Source: a virus
DNA: 20,328 nt
Reading direction: 5' to 3' (one strand)
Virus record (IMG/VR): IMGVR_UViG_3300029985_000183
Location: 1 to 20,328 of that record
In this document: positions 7,336 through 20,328 of the stretch, one piece after another
Position numbering within the stretch: position 1 is the first letter of the stretch
How the letters are laid out: every line of letters begins with the position of its first letter
Notes under the pieces: model-generated
Databases searched by the model: none
What the model was told of the DNA's origin: nothing
Seen by the model: the letters and a program-made list of their open reading frames with translations, nothing else
Made by a program: the position numbers and the translations under genes

Positions 7336-9906
7336 TTATTTGCCAGTTTTTTTCTTAATTGAGGAAGCTCTAATCTGAGCTACTTTTTCTTGAGAAGCTA
7401 TCTTTTGCCTTTCAGTATTAGTATCTTCAGCTTCTTTTGAAGTCTTAGCATCAAGCTTAGCTTGTTCTAAGTTATAATACCTTTCAGTATCTTCTCCAGA
7501 TTGACGTAGTTTTTCTATCTCTAATTGATCTGGTATACCATCGTCATTAGAGTCTTGGTTTTTCTGACGAGAGAAGCTATTAATCTCAGCTACGTGGACC
7601 ATAGCATTAGTCTTCATAGTCTCAAGATCTTCTCTAAGATCCCTATCCTTTTGAAGATCTGCACTCTTCATCTGTTGTACTTGAAGAGTAGTCTGTTGTT
7701 GAGCTTGTTGAGCTTGTTGTGCCTGTTGGCCTATCTCATCTTCTATTTGCTTAATGTAAACTCCAAACTCCGATAGGCTATCAGTAGTCATAAGCTTAGT
7801 TAACATACTAAGTGCATTCTGCTGGTTCTGTAATAGGTGAACAGCATTCTGTTTAAGAAATTCAAGAGATTGAGCTGCTCTACCATTATTAGCTATCTGT
7901 ACATCATAGTCCAGGTTATCAAATATACCTTCACCTATTTCTAAAATAGAGATTTCATCTTCATCTAATATAAAGCGCTCAGTTTTAGATTTAGATCTAG
8001 AGTACTTTAACTGCATCATCTGAACTACTCCATTAAGTACATCTTCCCAAAGAAGATCGTGTAAGGAGAATATAGCTTCAGTTATGTGAGAAGACTGCAT
8101 TATATCCTGCTTATTATCTCCAACATTAGAATAGGTAGAAGTTTGTCCCTCTCTTGGTTTAGATACACCAGCAGCTTCACCTATATTAGCTTCAATGAAC
8201 TGAAGTATCTGTGTATACTCGCTTATCCTTTTAGAAGATAAGTCAAGTGCTTCACCAGGCTTCATAGTATTACCTAATCTTTCAGCACCTTCTGCATTAG
8301 CAAGAGGATTATAAGGCATTACACCGGTATCCCTCATGTACCTCAAAGTCTTATCAAGATCAAATTTTGGATCCAGCAGGAGAGTATTAAACATATTAAT
8401 TACTCCCTGGTCCTTAGCTATAAGCTCTAACCACTTAGACATAACCATTAGATAAAGCTTTTGCCAAGGCTTCATTCTATCCATAGTAGAAACTATTGGA
8501 GCATTATATCCATTATGTGCAACGCCATATACTGGTAGTTTACACCTCTTAGGATCTTCCATAGACATATACTGGAAGGTAATAGGCCTAATGTTTACAT
8601 AGATATTAGACTCAATTCTAGTACCTTGCCATACTTCAGGTATCCAGTCCCATTCAATAGCTTCTGGCATACCCTCAGCATTAATCCATTCTTTTCTAGA
8701 ACGTGTTTCACCATCATCATCAGAATAACTAGTATTCTTAGCATATTTAGGTACTGTAAAAGCTTCATCTACTACTTGTTGAATCTCATCTCCATACTCA
8801 TTAATAGTAGTATAGAAACCTATCTTACGGAAGGATTTCCAGTAGATAGTATAAACATTAAGATAGTCAAAATCTGTAGAAAGTTCTTGTCCAAACTGTC
8901 CTAAGTGATGAAAGTCTGTCATTCCATAGGCAGAGAATCTTCCCCTTCTATAAACTAAATTTTCAAAGTGAGAAGGATCCCAACCTCCTTGTGAGTACAT
9001 CTTAGCATCAAGGCCAAATATACCACCTACCTGGCTATCTAAAGTACGTAGGTCATCTTCCTCCATGTCCTTACCATAGTGATCCATAACATCACTCATA
9101 GTCATTCTCCTACGGTATACAACATAATCTCCATCCTGTATAAATTGTACCTCTGGAGATTTGTGATATGCTAAACCTAATGGGTTAAGTACTTCTACAT
9201 TAACCTGATTATTCATTAATGAAACTTCTATAGCTTCTACTCCACTAACATTAGCATGAAAGAAAGTTTGGTTTTTCTTATGTCTAAGCTTATATGCTAT
9301 CTCTGCTCTACGGAGTAGTTTTTCCATTAGAGTTTCACGAGAGACTTTATAGTTTTTATACTTAGCTGCTATCTGCTCAGGATTAAGTATTCTCTGTTCC
9401 ATTTGTTGAAGCTCCTGCATTAAAGCTTCTTGCTGCTGCTTAGCCTGATCTGGTGGAAGACCTTGAGTTTGTTGTTGTACTTGTAACTGTATCTTTTGCT
9501 GATTCTTAGCTACTTCTTTCTGTAGATTAAAGTCTATTAATCTCTGCATATCCCTAGTCTTATCCCTAATTACTTCATTAGAAACATCTTCACTGCTAGA
9601 GATAGCACTATACTCCCAGGGCCTCTTCTGTTCTTCACCTACTAGTACATTAATCTTATTATAGGTATGATTAAATGCCTGAACATAGTCTCTACCTAAC
9701 TTATCATCTACTCCTAGTGGATCTGCAAATCTTTTATAGTCATTCTGGTTTAAGACATTGTTATGCAGGTTATAGTTTTCTTGCATCCTAGCATAGTCAA
9801 CTATATATTGACTATCTGCCTGTGAACAGCGGTAGTCAATATTGTCCTTTCTCCAGGCTTTATTCTTTTTACTGTAGGATATTCTTTGCTTAGGTAAGTG
9901 AATCAT
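7336..9906 (-). CDS. Portal protein
   Basis: 856 residues with the chosen start, very long for a portal but normal for crAss-like phages. The frame is open back to 9987, but those extra codons lie wholly inside the TerL gene and give a Met-rich, unlikely N-terminus (MPGSSMSIMVEMMNLMPLM). ATG 9906 gives MIHLPKQRISYSKKNKAWRK, overlaps TerL by only 17 nt and follows an A-rich stretch. Features are a Gln-rich helix at about 135-170, the body with long alpha-helical stem (PREGQTSTYSNVGDNKQDIM near 615), and a Gln-repeat coiled coil near 725-745. A DSNDDGIPD segment near 785-793 looks like a calcium-binding loop. The tail is charged and helical. It is placed directly after TerL. Confidence 0.75.
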   Translation of the reverse strand: MIHLPKQRISYSKKNKAWRKDNIDYRCSQADSQYIVDYARMQENYNLHNNVLNQNDYKRFADPLGVDDKLGRDYVQAFNHTYNKINVLVGEEQKRPWEYSAISSSEDVSNEVIRDKTRDMQRLIDFNLQKEVAKNQQKIQLQVQQQTQGLPPDQAKQQQEALMQELQQMEQRILNPEQIAAKYKNYKVSRETLMEKLLRRAEIAYKLRHKKNQTFFHANVSGVEAIEVSLMNNQVNVEVLNPLGLAYHKSPEVQFIQDGDYVVYRRRMTMSDVMDHYGKDMEEDDLRTLDSQVGGIFGLDAKMYSQGGWDPSHFENLVYRRGRFSAYGMTDFHHLGQFGQELSTDFDYLNVYTIYWKSFRKIGFYTTINEYGDEIQQVVDEAFTVPKYAKNTSYSDDDGETRSRKEWINAEGMPEAIEWDWIPEVWQGTRIESNIYVNIRPITFQYMSMEDPKRCKLPVYGVAHNGYNAPIVSTMDRMKPWQKLYLMVMSKWLELIAKDQGVINMFNTLLLDPKFDLDKTLRYMRDTGVMPYNPLANAEGAERLGNTMKPGEALDLSSKRISEYTQILQFIEANIGEAAGVSKPREGQTSTYSNVGDNKQDIMQSSHITEAIFSLHDLLWEDVLNGVVQMMQLKYSRSKSKTERFILDEDEISILEIGEGIFDNLDYDVQIANNGRAAQSLEFLKQNAVHLLQNQQNALSMLTKLMTTDSLSEFGVYIKQIEDEIGQQAQQAQQAQQQTTLQVQQMKSADLQKDRDLREDLETMKTNAMVHVAEINSFSRQKNQDSNDDGIPDQLEIEKLRQSGEDTERYYNLEQAKLDAKTSKEAEDTNTERQKIASQEKVAQIRASSIKKKTGK

Positions 9907-12196
9907 ACCTGGATTTATTTTTATTGTAAACATAAGAGGCATGAGATTCATCATCTCCACCATAATACTCATTGAACTTCCTGGCAAACTGATCCATTAC
10001 TGTTTCTTTACCAGGATCTTCTTCGCTGGCATATTGATTATACACCTCTTCTTGTTGTATTACACAACCCATTAGTGTCCTAATTCTATCAAAGTTACCT
10101 GTTCTATTATAGGATACTAGTTCCTGTAGTAATCCTATGTCTGGTATCAGGTCTAAGTTTCTTTCCTCTAATCCATTATCTGGATTAATACCTCTAGACT
10201 GCATTAGCCACCTCTTAAGATATATTTCTCCCATCTCCACATGTTTAGGAGATCCCATAGAGTGTCCCTTCACCCTCTTAGATGTAGCACTATTAGTTAT
10301 GTGTTTCTCCATTGTTCTATTAGGAGAGTCCATTAACCGGCTAAGTGCATTATTCTTTATAAAGAACTCTTGTACTACTGCACCATTCCTATCATTTTCA
10401 AAGTCTACTTTAGCGTTATAATACTTAGATAATTTAAATGCTATAAAGTTAGCAAAGGTAGTTGGATCTTCTTTAGCCCTACCAACATATATAGCTACAA
10501 GATCATCAAAGCCTATCTCATACATGTACTTCTTAGTCTTGAGGACCATTATACAAATAAGAGATTCTGCACCTGACTCCTCTATACCAATAGTATCCAT
10601 TGATATAATGTATGCTCCAGAAGGAATTTGACCTCTTATCTCTCTAGGCTGTTCATATATTACCAGACATCCTTCCCTATTCTTTTGATTAGGCTTAATA
10701 GGGTAAGTATCAATAGGCTGAAGCTTACCTTCAAGATCTGGTAGAAAGTCTACTAATCCTTTCTGTTCTACTAGAGTACCTTTAGTTCCCAGGAGCCTAT
10801 AAGCTCTATCTGACTTAAGTTTACCTAACCTAGCTATTAGCTCTGGTAGAATAGAAGCAAATATATTTCCACCTACTATAAGGAATGCTTCTGAAGGAGT
10901 TTTACAGTACTGAGTAAGGTCTAGTGCCAGTGAAGCCCTATCCTTGTTCTTAGAGGCCTCTCTTTCACGATTAAGAGATACCTCAGCTGCCCATCTAATA
11001 GCATTTCCATTAGTATCTAATAAGGATACTTTCTGTCCATCTATCATTTCATCCCCTTCCCTAAACCACATCTCATCTACAAAATATCCACACTTACTAT
11101 GTACTTCTGTCTCTTCATAAATATTATCAAATGAAGCTAAATGGTATGCTTCTGGATTATAGAACATTTCAGAGAAGTCCTGTGAGTCTCCCTTCATATC
11201 ACCACCAGTACCAAATATAATTGCAATACCTTTATATATCTTTCCTGATCTTAGAGTAGGTTCAGTGTAACCCCAGGCTTGCTTAAGTTGGGTTATAAGA
11301 CCAGCTTCTTCAAATAGTACTCTACTAGTACCATTACCTACAGCTGCTTTTGGGTTATTGTGAAGAGTAACAGTTGTTATTACGGACTTTCTTCCCTTAA
11401 CATATTTCTTTCCATTTTCTTCTACTTCCTTACCCGCCTTAACATAGCAATGATCTTTAGTAGATACTCTATTTACTGTTGGACCACCAAATTCAGTATA
11501 CTGATTTAGAAAGTCAAGCATATCCATTGCCATGTCAAAGGTGTCCTTTGCCTTAACACCTAACTCTGCGGCAATGATAACTTTACACATAGCTCCACCT
11601 GCATTCTTAAAAGAGAAACCCTTTCTTCTAGCCTTAACTACTATAAGGCTTTTCTTATCTTCTCTATTCTTAGGATTTTCCCTTTTTTCTAGTTCCTTAA
11701 ACCAGTAGTAATCCATTGTGCAAAAGATAGGAAAGTCAGGCTCACCTATCTCTTCACCAGTATCTTTATTAATAGCTACTAGCTCTATTAAGCAGTAGTT
11801 AAGATAGAAATAGTACTCTCCTGGTATTCTTACTCCACAAGGCTTACCATCTATATAAGGCTCATATCCTTGTAAGCACCTATCTCTTTCTTTGGTCCAA
11901 AACTCTTTATACTCTATTGTGCCTGGTATAGCGCTAGTATAACTAGGCTCCACTCCAGTACCACTATTGTCTTCTCTTGATTTTTTAAAGGCGTTAGATG
12001 CAGGACTAAATACAGATGAGTCATTAAAGAATAAATACTGCCATTCAGTATTTCTCATAGGGTCTAGCATACTAGCCCTAGAGATCTTACCATATACAGC
12101 TTCATTAGATAGTATAGTATCTATAGGACAGCCCTGCAAAGGATCTGTTATAACTACTGCTACTCTTGGGTCTAATGTAAGCTTTTCTCTAACCAT
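9890..12196 (-). CDS. Terminase large subunit (packaging ATPase-nuclease)
   Basis: 768 residues. The ATPase domain shows a viral-type Walker A at about 188-195 (KARRKGFS, after hydrophobic SLIVV). Walker B is at 293-299 (VLFEEAG), with Glu-Glu in place of the common Asp-Glu, and a coupling motif lies at 326-334 (IIFGTGGDM). The C-terminal nuclease domain has its first acidic residue in IISMDTIG (about 534), a second acidic group in VDFENDRNG (about 598-604) and a likely third in GNFDRIRTLMG near the end. This is the motor that cuts concatemers and pumps DNA through the portal. It starts 2 nt after the small-terminase candidate and overlaps the portal start. The long N-terminus before Walker A (about 185 residues) resembles crAss-like TerL. 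Confidence 0.88.
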   Translation of the reverse strand: MVREKLTLDPRVAVVITDPLQGCPIDTILSNEAVYGKISRASMLDPMRNTEWQYLFFNDSSVFSPASNAFKKSREDNSGTGVEPSYTSAIPGTIEYKEFWTKERDRCLQGYEPYIDGKPCGVRIPGEYYFYLNYCLIELVAINKDTGEEIGEPDFPIFCTMDYYWFKELEKRENPKNREDKKSLIVVKARRKGFSFKNAGGAMCKVIIAAELGVKAKDTFDMAMDMLDFLNQYTEFGGPTVNRVSTKDHCYVKAGKEVEENGKKYVKGRKSVITTVTLHNNPKAAVGNGTSRVLFEEAGLITQLKQAWGYTEPTLRSGKIYKGIAIIFGTGGDMKGDSQDFSEMFYNPEAYHLASFDNIYEETEVHSKCGYFVDEMWFREGDEMIDGQKVSLLDTNGNAIRWAAEVSLNREREASKNKDRASLALDLTQYCKTPSEAFLIVGGNIFASILPELIARLGKLKSDRAYRLLGTKGTLVEQKGLVDFLPDLEGKLQPIDTYPIKPNQKNREGCLVIYEQPREIRGQIPSGAYIISMDTIGIEESGAESLICIMVLKTKKYMYEIGFDDLVAIYVGRAKEDPTTFANFIAFKLSKYYNAKVDFENDRNGAVVQEFFIKNNALSRLMDSPNRTMEKHITNSATSKRVKGHSMGSPKHVEMGEIYLKRWLMQSRGINPDNGLEERNLDLIPDIGLLQELVSYNRTGNFDRIRTLMGCVIQQEEVYNQYASEEDPGKETVMDQFARKFNEYYGGDDESHASYVYNKNKSRYDSLT

Positions 12197-17158: not shown

Positions 17159-17574
17159 TTTACTTGTTCTTCTATTGTGAAATTAAATACATAATCAAAC
17201 TCAAACTTCTGATCCTTGGCTAAGTTATCCTTTATTACCCGCCTAAGTACCTGAATCTCTTTAGGAAAGCTTAGTAAGCTATCCTCATCTTCTATTAATA
17301 TTCCCTTAGTTATAATAGAGGATCTTAAATTATATAACGCTGACCTAGTTACTTTTAGTTCTTTAGCTAGCTCAAAATTCTTTGATTGATAATTCTTACT
17401 CTTCTTTTTATCAAGAAAGTACTCCATAGGCTTACTACAGATTATTGAGATTAGCTGAATCTCATGGCCTGTTAGCCTAAACTTCTTTAACCTTCTGATA
17501 TTCATTACATTAAAATAGAACTTATAAAATTCGTATTCTGATGATATGAATTGATCATTTATTTGTTTCTTCAT
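17155..17574 (-). CDS. Putative winged-helix DNA-binding regulator, first gene of the minus block
   Basis: 139 residues. After an N-terminal helical region with YKFYFNV and a basic stretch (IRRLKKFRL) there is a helix-turn-helix-like segment at about 66-93 (NFELAKELKVTRSALYNLRS followed by IITKGIL), as in winged-helix or MarR-like regulators. The next stretch (LSFPKEIQVL) could form the wing. It is the promoter-proximal gene of the long virion block, so it could control late transcription. This is inference from position. The start at 17574 is preceded by AGTAACA and TATAAT. Confidence 0.5.
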   Translation of the reverse strand: MKKQINDQFISSEYEFYKFYFNVMNIRRLKKFRLTGHEIQLISIICSKPMEYFLDKKKSKNYQSKNFELAKELKVTRSALYNLRSSIITKGILIEDEDSLLSFPKEIQVLRRVIKDNLAKDQKFEFDYVFNFTIEEQVK

Positions 17575-17581
17575 TGTTACT

Positions 17582-17587
17582 ATTATA
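17582..17587 (-). promoter_or_regulatory. Possible -10 box (TATAAT) for the minus block
   Basis: On the minus strand TATAAT lies 7 nt upstream of the first ATG of the block. No matching -35 element at normal spacing was found. If used it would give an almost leaderless message, so it may be a chance match in AT-rich sequence. Confidence 0.2.
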
Positions 17588-18098
17588 CAATATCTCCCCT
17601 CACTTCAGTGACTTTTGACAACCAATTACTTGATTGCGATTTTAACTTACTAACTTATCCTCTGCCGTTTTAAGCCTTCCAGTAGCACCGGTAATCTAAC
17701 TGCTACCCCAGAGTATTCATTCTTGTAAGTCATTTTTGTTAGCTAGAGGGGACAACACCATAATGTCTATTTGACTAGGCCAACCCTCTGTCTAGGCTTC
17801 TATCTATCCCTCTGGGACCCTCAAAGCCGGTAACTATTAAGCTGCTAACGGATACAAAGATAAGCAAAATAAAGGATCCATGTAGCTTTAAGTATAGTTT
17901 TAGCGTACTAAATAATGTAAGTAGTTGATAGTCAATGAGAATGATTTCAAAGAATATTTTTTGTAAAGTAACAGGTTTACTTTCCTACTGGAATGGTAAA
18001 TATATTGCTTGACTATATAAGGCTATGAGCTTATAATGGGCCTATATTAGGTTATAGGCTTATGGTTGGCGAGGGCACTTTTGAAAGCCGGTATAGGT

Positions 18099-18133
18099 TA
18101 TAGTTAAAAAAATTTTTTAAAATTTTATTAAAT
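18099..18133. other. A/T tract
   Basis: After TATAGTT comes a run of only A and T containing A7T6 followed by A4T4. It is strongly bendable and easily melted. It lies inside the divergent region, between hairpins, so it could be a DNA unwinding element, an UP-like promoter element, or a bidirectional termination tract. The sequence does not decide among these. Confidence 0.3.
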
Positions 18134-18179
18134 GGGCTTACTAGTACTGGTGTTGGTACTTTTATTGTTACTGGCATAG

Positions 18180-18237
18180 GTACCTGGCATCAAACCTACC
18201 CCCCTACCTAATGCTGTCTTCTTGGTGCCTGGGGTAC
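18180..18237 (+). other. Two-part hairpin with C-rich loop
   Basis: GTACC (18180-18184) pairs with GGTAC (18233-18237). After a small internal loop GGCATCAA (18186-18193) pairs with TTGGTGCC (18222-18229, one G-U). The 28-nt loop contains a run of six C. It lies about 85 nt before the first plus-strand gene and could be a leader structure or attenuator. No T-run follows, so it is not a standard terminator. Confidence 0.4.
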
Positions 18238-18292
18238 ATGAGGGTCTTTCTAAGTCTACTTTGGACTTTTGAATGTGAACAATCCCCAGGAT

Positions 18293-18320
18293 TATAGTTC
18301 ATCAGTAAAACTCACAGATC
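18293..18320 (+). promoter_or_regulatory. TATAGTT plus AAAACTCAC leader before the 150-residue gene
   Basis: TATAGTT (18293-18299) is followed by AGTAAAACTCACAGATC and the ATG at 18321. The AAAAC..CTCAC block recurs right before the plus-strand starts at 19939 and 20272. TTTTG lies 21 nt upstream of TATAGTT, which loosely fits the Bacteroidota -33/-7 arrangement, but the other copies lack it. It may be a promoter with short leader or a translation leader. Confidence 0.35.
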
Positions 18321-18773
18321 ATGGTCACAGCCAAAAAAGAAGCTACTGAAGTAGCTCAAGTATCATCAGTTAGTACAACCTTTGGCAGCATGTTTACCAC
18401 TGCCAGAGATGATAATTCCTTCGATGTTAAGGTAATGCTACTTAAGGTAGAGAATGCCTTTGACACCAAGAAGGACGGTAGCCAGCGTAATGCTAAATCA
18501 GCAGATACTGTTCTGTCTATCAAAGATAGTGCAGGTAAATTGTTAAGGCCATTCTGCTATAGGAGCAGTGTATTTGGTCAAGGCATTCCTGCTTTGCCTG
18601 GTAGTGGTTTACCGGTAGTATGCACATTCATACCTCAAGAGGGTATTAATCCTATTACTAAAGTGGCATATGATCCTAAGCTTATTGGCTTAAGGGTTGA
18701 TATTGAAGCCATCCAAGAGGAAGTTATGCGTAAGCTTAACTCATTGAAAGGCTCTTTAGTAGCAACAATGTAA
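18321..18773 (+). CDS. Unidentified 150-residue protein, first plus-strand gene
   Basis: The protein starts MVTAKKEATEVAQVSS (flexible), then has beta-rich sequence (FDVKVMLLKVENAFDTKKDG, DTVLSIKDSAGKLLRPF), a Gly/Pro-rich middle (GQGIPALPGSGLPVV), and a C-terminal helix (EAIQEEVMRKLNSLKGS). There is no signal peptide or enzyme motif. An OB-fold or other small beta protein is possible but not shown. About 26 of 151 codons end in C (GCC, ACC, GGC, TTC), more than in most neighbours, which fits strong expression or a different origin. It is flanked by two structured non-coding regions. The stop is TAA followed directly by TAG. Confidence 0.65.
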   Translation: MVTAKKEATEVAQVSSVSTTFGSMFTTARDDNSFDVKVMLLKVENAFDTKKDGSQRNAKSADTVLSIKDSAGKLLRPFCYRSSVFGQGIPALPGSGLPVVCTFIPQEGINPITKVAYDPKLIGLRVDIEAIQEEVMRKLNSLKGSLVATM

Positions 18774-18780
18774 TAGTGGT

Positions 18781-18815
18781 TGGAGGGAGTTGCAGCTTAG
18801 GCTGTGCTCCCTTCA
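18781..18815 (+). terminator. Stem-loop after the 150-residue gene
   Basis: TGGAGGGAG (18781-18789) pairs with CTCCCTTCA (18807-18815), containing one G-U. Within it CAGC (18793-18796) pairs with GCTG (18801-18804) around TTAG. CTTCTTATTT follows, T-rich but not a strong U-run. It could end the message of the preceding gene or be a 5' element of the RNA domain that follows. Confidence 0.4.
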
Positions 18816-18947
18816 CTTCTTATTTGGTCCTAGCCAGGAATATCCATTACTGGTTATTGATGCAGAGGGATGTGTATACATATAGTTAATTGGCATCTCT
18901 CTAAATGACGTACAACGAATGTTACCTTATAGTTATAAAACAAAGTC

Positions 18948-19118
18948 TTAGGGCTACTGCAAGGGTTAATTGATAGTTCTTGTATCTTAGCTACACATCT
19001 AACTGATTGATGCAAAAGAATATCCTATCATAAGCATAGATTCTCTGTGAAGGGGTGAGTATTGACGAATACTACTTGACAGATAAAGACTCCATGTTAG
19101 CACTTGCAGTAGCTTTAA
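18948..19118 (+). other. Long-range helix domain of the candidate RNA
   Basis: 18948-18963 pairs with 19103-19118 without interruption (16 bp, two G-U). After one G-A mismatch 18965-18970 pairs with 19096-19101 (6 pairs, two G-U). After an internal loop 18975-18987 pairs with 19081-19091 with single-base bulges (about 11 pairs). The enclosed part holds hairpins 18996-18999/19009-19012, 19017-19021 plus 19025-19028 with 19036-19044, and 19058-19063/19068-19073 (AGTATT/AATACT). Confidence 0.55.
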
Positions 19119-19166
19119 TCTATATCTTGAAACCTGACAAGCTTTAAATGTAAAATAAAGTATATG

Positions 19167-19249
19167 GAGCAGAGTACAGCACAAGGCTGGTTGTGATTAC
19201 TATATCCAGAAGTCGAGGACAGCCAACCTCAAGATAGTAATAGCTGCTC
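19167..19249 (+). other. Three-way junction with complementary hairpin loops (kissing loop)
   Basis: Closing helix GAGCAG (19167-19172) with CTGCTC (19244-19249). Hairpin CACAA (19180-19184) with TTGTG (19191-19195), loop GGCTGG. It abuts helix ATTACTAT (19196-19203) with ATAGTAAT (19234-19241), which carries GAGG (19215-19218) with CCTC (19227-19230), loop ACAGCCAA. GGCTG in the first loop is fully complementary to CAGCC in the second. The layout is like that of riboswitch-type three-way junctions with loop-loop contacts. Confidence 0.5.
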
Positions 19250-19257
19250 TTATCCCT

Positions 19258-19380
19258 CTTCAGTACAATAACATTAAACTTCTGCTACTAGGATATAAAT
19301 AGGTTCAAGGTACATGCACCTCTATTTAGATTCCTAGTAGCTCTTGTTTAACTGCTAATGCATAAGTATTAGTACTTGAG
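19258..19380 (+). other. Rod-like hairpin domain of the candidate RNA
   Basis: An outer helix joins 19258-19266 and 19372-19380 (eight pairs, one C-T mismatch). Inside, TTAAAC (19274-19279) pairs with GTTTAA (19346-19351), then comes a symmetric 4x4 pyrimidine internal loop. GCTACTAGG (19284-19292) pairs with CCTAGTAGC (19333-19341), TAAATA (19296-19301) with TATTTA (19323-19328), and GGT (19302-19304) with ACC (19318-19320). Confidence 0.5.
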
Positions 19381-19401
19381 TAGATCTTCATTAACACTCA
19401 C

Positions 19402-19435
19402 CATTATAGTTAGCTTTGGCAGAAGGAACTAAATG
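19402..19435 (+). other. Hairpin containing a TATAGTT copy
   Basis: CATT-A-TAGTT (19402-19411, bulged A at 19406) pairs with AACTAAATG (19427-19435), then CTT with AAG around a TGGCAG loop. The TATAGTT copy at 19405 is mostly inside this helix. Confidence 0.4.
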
Positions 19436-19462
19436 ACAATAAAGAATCTGTCAAGTATAATA

Positions 19463-19532
19463 TGAACTATCTTTTTGAGCATAAAGTAAACTATGCACAA
19501 GTAAGTATGAGCAGCGAATGCTCTATAGTTCA
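19463..19532 (+). other. Three-way junction of the candidate RNA
   Basis: TGAACTAT (19463-19470) pairs with ATAGTTCA (19525-19532). Within are TTG.GCATA (19475-19483) with TATGC.CAA (19492-19500) and GAGCA (19509-19513) with TGCTC (19519-19523), loop GCGAA. Confidence 0.45.
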
Positions 19533-19618
19533 CCAACCACTGGAGCAACTAACTGTTTACAGATTAGTATATAAGACTCCAGTAACTTATTATTTATTTA
19601 ACATTTAAAGCTTTAGAT

Positions 19619-19807
19619 ATGCAAGATCCATTTGAAGAAGAGATGAAGAAGAGTATGGAGCAAAGATTATCTGAAGAGATAGCTGAGCTTAGAGCTACTA
19701 TTGATTCTCTTGAGGATAAGATAGGAGATCTTAAAGCTGAAGTGTTTGTACTTACTGGAAGAATGAATAGTGTAGAAAGAAGATCTGGAGTTAATTATCT
19801 AGACTAA
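19619..19807 (+). CDS. Small coiled-coil protein
   Basis: 62 residues, acidic and almost wholly helical. Heptad-like spacing of Leu/Ile/Val runs from about residue 12 to 52 (LSEEIAELRATIDSLEDKIG, then LKAEVFVLTGRMNSVE), predicting a parallel coiled-coil dimer or trimer. There is no membrane segment or DNA-binding motif. It begins 36 nt after the last helix of the candidate RNA and lacks the AAAAC..CTCAC leader of its neighbours, so it might be expressed from the same transcript as the RNA. Function unknown. Confidence 0.55.
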   Translation: MQDPFEEEMKKSMEQRLSEEIAELRATIDSLEDKIGDLKAEVFVLTGRMNSVERRSGVNYLD

Positions 19808-19844
19808 ATTTTACTTGAAATAATAAACTGTAAGTGAGTGGTGG

Positions 19845-19872
19845 TAAGGGTTCCAGGCATATATTCCCCTTA
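19845..19872 (+). terminator. Weak hairpin after the coiled-coil gene
   Basis: TAAGGG (19845-19850) pairs with CCCTTA (19867-19872), loop of 16 nt, followed by TTCCTCT. It has six pairs and no real U-run. It may be a terminator or chance. Confidence 0.25.
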
Positions 19873-19918
19873 TTCCTCTAAAAGCTCAAACACAAAACAA
19901 GAATAGGTCTACATACAT

Positions 19919-19938
19919 TATAGTTAAAACCCCTCACC
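19919..19938 (+). promoter_or_regulatory. TATAGTT plus AAAAC..CTCAC leader before the 99-residue gene
   Basis: TATAGTT (19919-19925) runs directly into AAAACCCCTCACC and the ATG. This is the most compact version of the shared early-gene leader. No TTTG box lies at the Bacteroidota -33 distance. Confidence 0.35.
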
Positions 19939-20238
19939 ATGACAAAACTTCAAATACTCAGAAAGACTAGGAAAGCATACAATGATATGCTTGAGAAGCA
20001 TAAGAAGTCTTCTTATAATAGATTTAATGATGCTTTATTCAAAGCTTATATGGATATAGGACTATGTTTGTACATATCCACAGTATTTAAAACAATGGCT
20101 CCATATAAGGAATATTGGTTTGGAGAAGGTTATATTGCTAATGTGCCAGGATTTACTTTTACAAAAAAAGATCTAACTCAATCTATACAGATAAGGATAG
20201 ATCGTTTAGATGTAGAAATAGCAAAGCTACAGATATAA
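19939..20238 (+). CDS. Unidentified small protein
   Basis: 99 residues. Basic helical N-terminus (TKLQILRKTRKAYNDMLEKH), then a Phe/Tyr/Leu-rich middle (FKAYMDIGLCLYISTVFKTM), an aromatic patch (YKEYWFGEGYI), and a C-terminal helix with DLTQSIQIRIDRLDVEIAKL. No signal peptide is present and the hydrophobic part is too broken for a clear membrane helix. Small proteins with this general look are common among early genes of Bacteroidota phages, with unknown function. It has the shared AAAAC..CTCAC leader. Confidence 0.6.
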   Translation: MTKLQILRKTRKAYNDMLEKHKKSSYNRFNDALFKAYMDIGLCLYISTVFKTMAPYKEYWFGEGYIANVPGFTFTKKDLTQSIQIRIDRLDVEIAKLQI

Positions 20239-20245
20239 AATTCAT

Positions 20246-20271
20246 CAATTCATAGTAAAAACTCACAAATA
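20246..20271 (+). promoter_or_regulatory. Third copy of the early leader
   Basis: CATAGTAAAAACTCACAAATA precedes the ATG at 20272. It matches the leader before 18321 in AGTAAAA and ACTCACA, but has CATAGTA where the others have TATAGTT. Confidence 0.3.
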
Positions 20272-20328
20272 ATGAAAACTATTAAATTTAACATTATCTG
20301 GATGAGTATGCAAACTACACTGGATCAA
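20272..20328 (+). CDS. Start of an unidentified gene (3' end outside window)
   Basis: 19 codons of open frame (MKTIKFNIIWMSMQT...) run to the right edge. The start is supported by the shared leader and the 33-nt spacing from the preceding stop. Nothing can be said about function. Confidence 0.5.
   Translation, partial: MKTIKFNIIWMSMQTTLDQ

Follow-up and report, generated by a model that had tools for sequence, protein, structure and literature searches.

The 845-nt interval at positions 18774-19618 of the window (the whole 20,328-nt stretch of viral DNA analyzed here, IMG/VR record IMGVR_UViG_3300029985_000183) is, in our reading of its predicted fold, probably a large orphan structured RNA that belongs to an early-region RNA locus of the Crassvirales, is expressed early and acts as RNA. 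Directly observed are the lack of a gene, an excess of long helices over both shuffled sequences and coding controls, a well-defined fold and a location that bears RNA genes in other Crassvirales. We infer that the region from about 18826 to 19613 would be transcribed off the plus strand at an early stage of infection (transcription, strand and exact ends all being part of the proposal) and that the product would function as a large, folded non-coding transcript instead of serving as mRNA. The molecule would consist of two domains of ~170 and ~475 nt, each closed by a helix and joined to the other by a putative loop–loop pseudoknot, and, judging from other large phage RNAs, would most likely serve as a stable scaffold, decoy or oligomer binding phage or host components during infection.

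Genomic context and coding potential

Judged from its sequence, the window covers part of a crAss-like phage genome: its terminase, portal, capsid and endolysin have PHROG matches, and its TerL shares ~30% identity with those of Crassvirales and of related phages of Bacteroidota. The late genes occupy the minus strand as far as 17574, and the early genes begin on the plus strand at 18321. A twin contig of 59.6 kb (IMGVR_UViG_3300029922_000075) is 99.9-100% identical to the window and extends it rightward, such that twin coordinates equal window coordinates plus 1680. TerL (window 9890-12196) comprises 768 aa in the window versus 776 aa in the twin, and the 8-residue difference fits a single 24-nt gap between the two sequences. 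The features discussed below are as follows.

17575..18320, no strand assigned: divergent spacer of 746 nt between the late (minus) and early (plus) genes
18321..18773, plus: first early gene, 150 aa, upstream of the interval, without recognizable family
18774..19618, plus: non-coding interval of 845 nt with the proposed structured RNA (ORF scans, fold versus shuffles)
18778..18814, plus: GC-rich hairpin (local fold ~-24 kcal/mol) immediately 3' of the 150-aa gene's stop codon, with ACTTCTTATTT after it
18864..18901, plus: predicted small hairpin GAGGGAUGU.../...CAUCUCUC (minimum free energy (MFE) and local folds)
18948..19118, plus: predicted domain A, closed by helix I2 (inverted repeat, best ungapped helix, pair probabilities)
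19073..19084, plus: proposed 5' arm of a pseudoknot, UACUUGACAGAU, mostly within a hairpin loop of domain A
19139..19613, plus: predicted domain B, closed by helix I1 (inverted repeat, MFE decomposition, pair probabilities)
19446..19457, plus: proposed 3' arm of the pseudoknot, AUCUGUCAAGUA, in domain B
19619..19807, plus: 62-aa coiled-coil ORF downstream of the interval, its ATG 5 nt past the 3' arm of I1

The preliminary description of this DNA had reported an 845-base stretch without genes, and we agree: no frame of the interval holds a plausible gene, recoded stops included. The longest ORF beginning with ATG has 48 aa, and with TAA as the sole stop the longest open frame is 240 nt, on which ground recoding with readthrough of TAG, TGA or both was rejected. 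A decayed gene was likewise rejected, as a six-frame protein comparison of 18774-19618 with relatives gave no match and no remnant, under conditions in which a control portal fragment did match. The accompanying statement that the genome otherwise wastes no space is incorrect: in the same region the twin has, besides the 746-nt spacer, early-side gaps of 1677, 580, 441, 366 and 424 nt beyond the interval. The GC-rich hairpin at 18778-18814 may not belong to the RNA and may instead terminate the 150-aa gene; no clear terminator was found at the end of the interval. The motif TATAGTT occurs on the plus strand at window positions 18293, 18881, 18928, 19405, 19524 and 19919, with four copies inside the interval and others just 5' of two early start codons, and is a possible phage promoter.

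Predicted fold and its controls

The two helices that would close the domains were detected as inverted repeats, without folding, and have pair probabilities of ~1 at most positions. I1 (arms 19139-19164 and 19588-19613; 26 nt, ~20 bp) is 88% complementary, and I2 (arms 18948-18969 and 19097-19118; 22 nt) is 82% complementary, with G-U on the plus strand at three of its four non-Watson-Crick positions. Within domain A, I2 is predicted to open onto a junction of three branches (18971-19030, 19035-19049 and 19052-19093), and I1 onto six nearly abutting branches in domain B (19166-19250, 19274-19351, 19354-19373, 19374-19456, 19463-19532 and 19539-19583). The long-range helices and junctions of the preliminary description are thus recovered; the end that it gave the structure, 19583, is wrong, since it omits the 3' arm of I1, which ends at 19613.

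Fold energy was compared with shuffled and with coding sequence. The plus-strand MFE is -234 kcal/mol (z -4.3, with none of 20 dinucleotide shuffles as low), a set of 12 other shuffles gave z -5.3, and in a third run none of 40 shuffles matched the interval in low energy or in having a well-defined ensemble; all 60 shuffles of the 20- and 40-shuffle runs fold worse. Coding windows from the same phage and strand, however, reach z -3 to -7, and ~5-15% of same-genome coding windows equal the interval in energy or in how well the fold is defined, with up to ~20% doing so in some fold measure. Hence the comparison with shuffles that the preliminary description had proposed comes out as expected for a structured RNA as far as the 60 shuffles go, but fold energy by itself does not set the interval apart from the phage's coding RNA. 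Nor do fold z-scores in 160-nt windows distinguish it from coding DNA, since its helices span long distances.

The count of perfect inverted repeats is a sharper test than fold energy. With perfect Watson-Crick pairing required throughout, the interval contains 4 inverted repeats of at least 10 bp, 3 of at least 11 bp and 2 of at least 12 bp, where 0.65, 0.17 and 0.02, respectively, are expected; no shuffle out of 150 and no coding window out of 54 reached its count. The best ungapped helix, in domain A, exceeds those of 60 of 60 shuffles and of all 55 coding windows. The 746-nt divergent spacer has none of these repeats, no inverted-repeat excess and a fold z of -0.2 on the plus and 0.15 on the minus strand; lacking excess structure, it serves as an internal negative control. 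These counts bear on the idea that the interval folds by chance and is either DNA under relaxed constraint, without function, or what is left of a gene. The phage does retain several large gaps in this region and its coding windows likewise fold better than shuffles, but the number of repeats of at least 10 bp is matched by no shuffle or coding window and no protein remnant is detectable, and we consider this explanation highly improbable.

The evidence on strand is weak. Helices picked without regard to strand contain 9 G-T and 3 A-C appositions, which is a weak sign of plus-strand RNA, and the minus strand folds almost equally well (z -3.6). The earlier claim that G-U pairs lie as expected for a plus-strand RNA is not confirmed beyond this weak bias, and A-C appositions do occur in the helices so picked. 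The same imbalance speaks against inverted repeats that act as DNA, for instance in a replication origin, a packaging site or a phage-polymerase promoter array. Such a role would suit an interval that adjoins the early/late divergence and carries four TATAGTT copies; yet the helices are long-range and multi-branched, unlike tandem iterons, and the divergent spacer itself has no repeat excess. We regard a DNA-level role as very unlikely.

The proposed pseudoknot would link domains A and B through 12 perfect pairs between 19073-19084 and 19446-19457. The duplex is worth -15.8 kcal/mol versus a cost of 6.6 kcal/mol for opening both arms, with the loop penalty left out, and the loop–loop contact suggested previously is thus supported by the model. 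This complement also bears on whether the interval holds several smaller, independent, adjacent RNAs, of ~170 and ~475 nt or shorter, much as hatchet, RAGATH and tRNA genes are scattered over this region in crAss-like phages of the gut. Each of domains A and B has its own closing helix, some 20 nt separate the two, and the RNA genes of the gut phages cr1_1 and cr115_1 measure 70-200 nt; a 12-bp complement between A and B, where 0.02 repeats of at least 12 bp are expected per sequence, argues instead for one molecule, and we think separate RNAs rather improbable.

The 3' arm of the pseudoknot has an alternative local partner, UACUUGA at 19373-19379, and with two competing partners a switch is possible. 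In a rival reading, the interval would be an unusually long, structured 5' leader for the 62-aa gene and its operon, with the closing helix masking the stretch ahead of the start codon and controlling translation. I1 stops 5 nt before the ATG at 19619, whereas the leader at this place is open and A-rich in most other early genes, and the pairing of AUCUGUCAAGUA with either 19073-19084 or 19373-19379 would then act as the switch. Against this, 845 nt is extreme for a 62-aa protein, covering a start codon needs little of the structure, and no riboswitch family in Rfam matches the interval. We judge the leader reading unlikely. A large multi-domain structured RNA, as first described, remains the best reading of a stable long-range fold that exceeds chance.

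Comparison with known RNA families

None of the 4227 models of Rfam 15 matches the interval at gathering cut-offs, and a search of 17500-20328 with permissive filters returned nothing credible up to E=5; the best lax-filter match to a hatchet or RAGATH model, RAGATH-7, is at chance level (17.4 bits versus a cut-off of 111.8, E=0.81). Group I and group II introns, tmRNA, RNase P and other Rfam RNAs were rejected on this basis, as were hatchet and RAGATH RNAs. Rfam models exist for GOLLD, ROOL and OLE (PMC12286853), and because none of these matches, whether at cut-off or up to E=5, the three are excluded as close members; the suggestion that the interval might be GOLLD or ROOL itself is therefore not borne out.

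The likeness to these families is one of kind. GOLLD and ROOL, the large ornate RNAs of phages and prophages (PMC12286853), are of similar size (600-850 nt) and, like the interval, are phage-borne and multi-domain, with long-range helices, pseudoknots (predicted in the case of the interval) and no known function. Unlike both, the interval belongs to a crAss-like lineage and leaves the Rfam models unmatched, and unlike GOLLD it does not sit beside a tRNA island, there being no tRNA gene inside the window and the nearest in the twin genome lying ~9.5 kb downstream. The interval is hence GOLLD/ROOL-like by kind and neither by family.

Searches for homologs returned the interval and its twin. DNA searches of viral contigs, phages, plasmids and relatives' contigs gave only chance-level matches beyond the twin contig, and the covariance models R1 and R2, based on domain A and a portion of domain B, found only the interval itself in 1.0 Mb of relatives (best other E 0.09). 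Searches with the neighboring proteins (the 150-aa and 99-aa proteins and a 328-aa protein) returned no carrier besides the identical twin contig, and the closest relative with a long contig (G010, major capsid protein (MCP) 65%) has no such gap.

An RNA-rich early region in Crassvirales

The interval is one of several elements in an RNA-rich early region that is general to Crassvirales, a context that the preliminary description missed. To our knowledge, only a few phage RNAs of such size and complexity have been described, none with an assigned function. On the early strand of cr1_1 and cr115_1, just beyond the late/early divergence and thus in the same genomic place as the interval, lie three hatchet ribozymes, RAGATH-9, RAGATH-22, tRNAs and a tmRNA. 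The hatchet and RAGATH RNAs of Crassvirales differ from the interval in being 100-200 nt long and in matching Rfam, none of whose models for them the interval matches. The hatchet, RAGATH-9 and RAGATH-22 copies of the gut crAss-like phages, together with a type-II hammerhead in a relative's contig, were located at L098:9624-9747 and 11800-11938, L097:13548-13647, L098:13360-13539, L097:15832-16032 and L024:197-276.

Gut Suoliviridae of four subfamilies (Boorivirinae, Loutivirinae, Uncouvirinae and Bearivirinae) carry an unannotated non-coding stretch of 1.9-2.5 kb at one syntenic place:

cr1_1 42136-44616 (L097:22137-24617), early strand: Suoliviridae element
L099:2350-4863, L100:2389-4844, L098:18393-20597, L101:2844-4990, L102:2636-4486 and L103:972-3051: the element in six relatives

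This element has no open frame even under recoding and no Rfam match, and it contains conserved sequence islands. Covariation is seen as double changes in 10 of the 16 pairs of one block and in up to 12 of 14 pairs, versus a shuffle maximum of 3. From these comparisons it is possibly a giant conserved phage RNA, and perhaps outranks the interval as a finding. Both are large, non-coding, structured and on the early strand of a crAss-like phage, but the element is more than twice as long and has other neighbors, and homology was rejected because nhmmer found no sequence similarity between the two. Though non-homologous, the element is evidence that very large structured RNAs are maintained at this place by phages of the kind.

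Downstream of the interval, the 1677-nt non-coding gap of the twin genome (L033:4789-6464) holds 11 inverted repeats of at least 10 bp versus 4.6 expected, a count reached in 1 of 150 shuffles, and its 3' end, TACTAAAGAG...CTCTTTAGTACCTTTTTTATT, reads by eye as an intrinsic terminator. The gap is probably a second large RNA. A comparison of four gaps of the genome, including this one against the interval, gave no convincing similarity. We tentatively suggest, as a possibility we hold with reservation, that the interval and the 1677-nt gap found a new class of large ornate RNA restricted to an environmental crAss-like lineage, and that the Crassvirales early region is a dedicated locus that carries and exchanges unrelated large RNAs. 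Crassvirales are among the commonest viruses of the human gut, and if such a locus exists, cultured phages could be used to test the function of large ornate RNAs by deletion.

A relative of 66 kb, IMGVR_UViG_3300045912_000129, has early gaps whose fold z-scores go as low as -12.6 and which hold tRNA-Glu, tRNA-Asp and an array of H-type pseudoknots. The array (L089 and L090; 54.5-66 kb) comprises ~20 copies of a ~35-nt pseudoknot whose third loop is A/U-rich (AUAUAAAUA) and whose stem sequences vary among copies with complementarity kept in both stems. A strict definition gives 10 such pseudoknots on the plus strand, none on the minus strand and 0-1 in shuffles; scanning viral contigs with an exact-type pattern turned up no further carrier.

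Several other observations concern the twin genome and its relatives. The twin's early region contains a G-rich simple repeat of the GGGAGT type on the plus strand (24161-24350). The twin also has a tRNA-Phe(GAA) (L033:13452-13548, twin 30844-30940; Rfam 51.8 bits) whose anticodon loop is interrupted, at the canonical intron position, by 21 nt (ARAGORN intron mode), which is too short to be a self-splicing intron. Capsid relatives at 65-66% in GTDB are confined to two genomes (L063 and L064), both archaeal metagenome-assembled genomes (MAGs) and one of them from Woesearchaeota. Together with the tRNA intron these raise, without proving, the question of an archaeal host, for which a binning error is the simpler reading. 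Finally, in the relative L007 (17869-20438) the capsid gene is split by ~1 kb and the TerL ORF spans 1869 codons, which suggests an intron and an intein.
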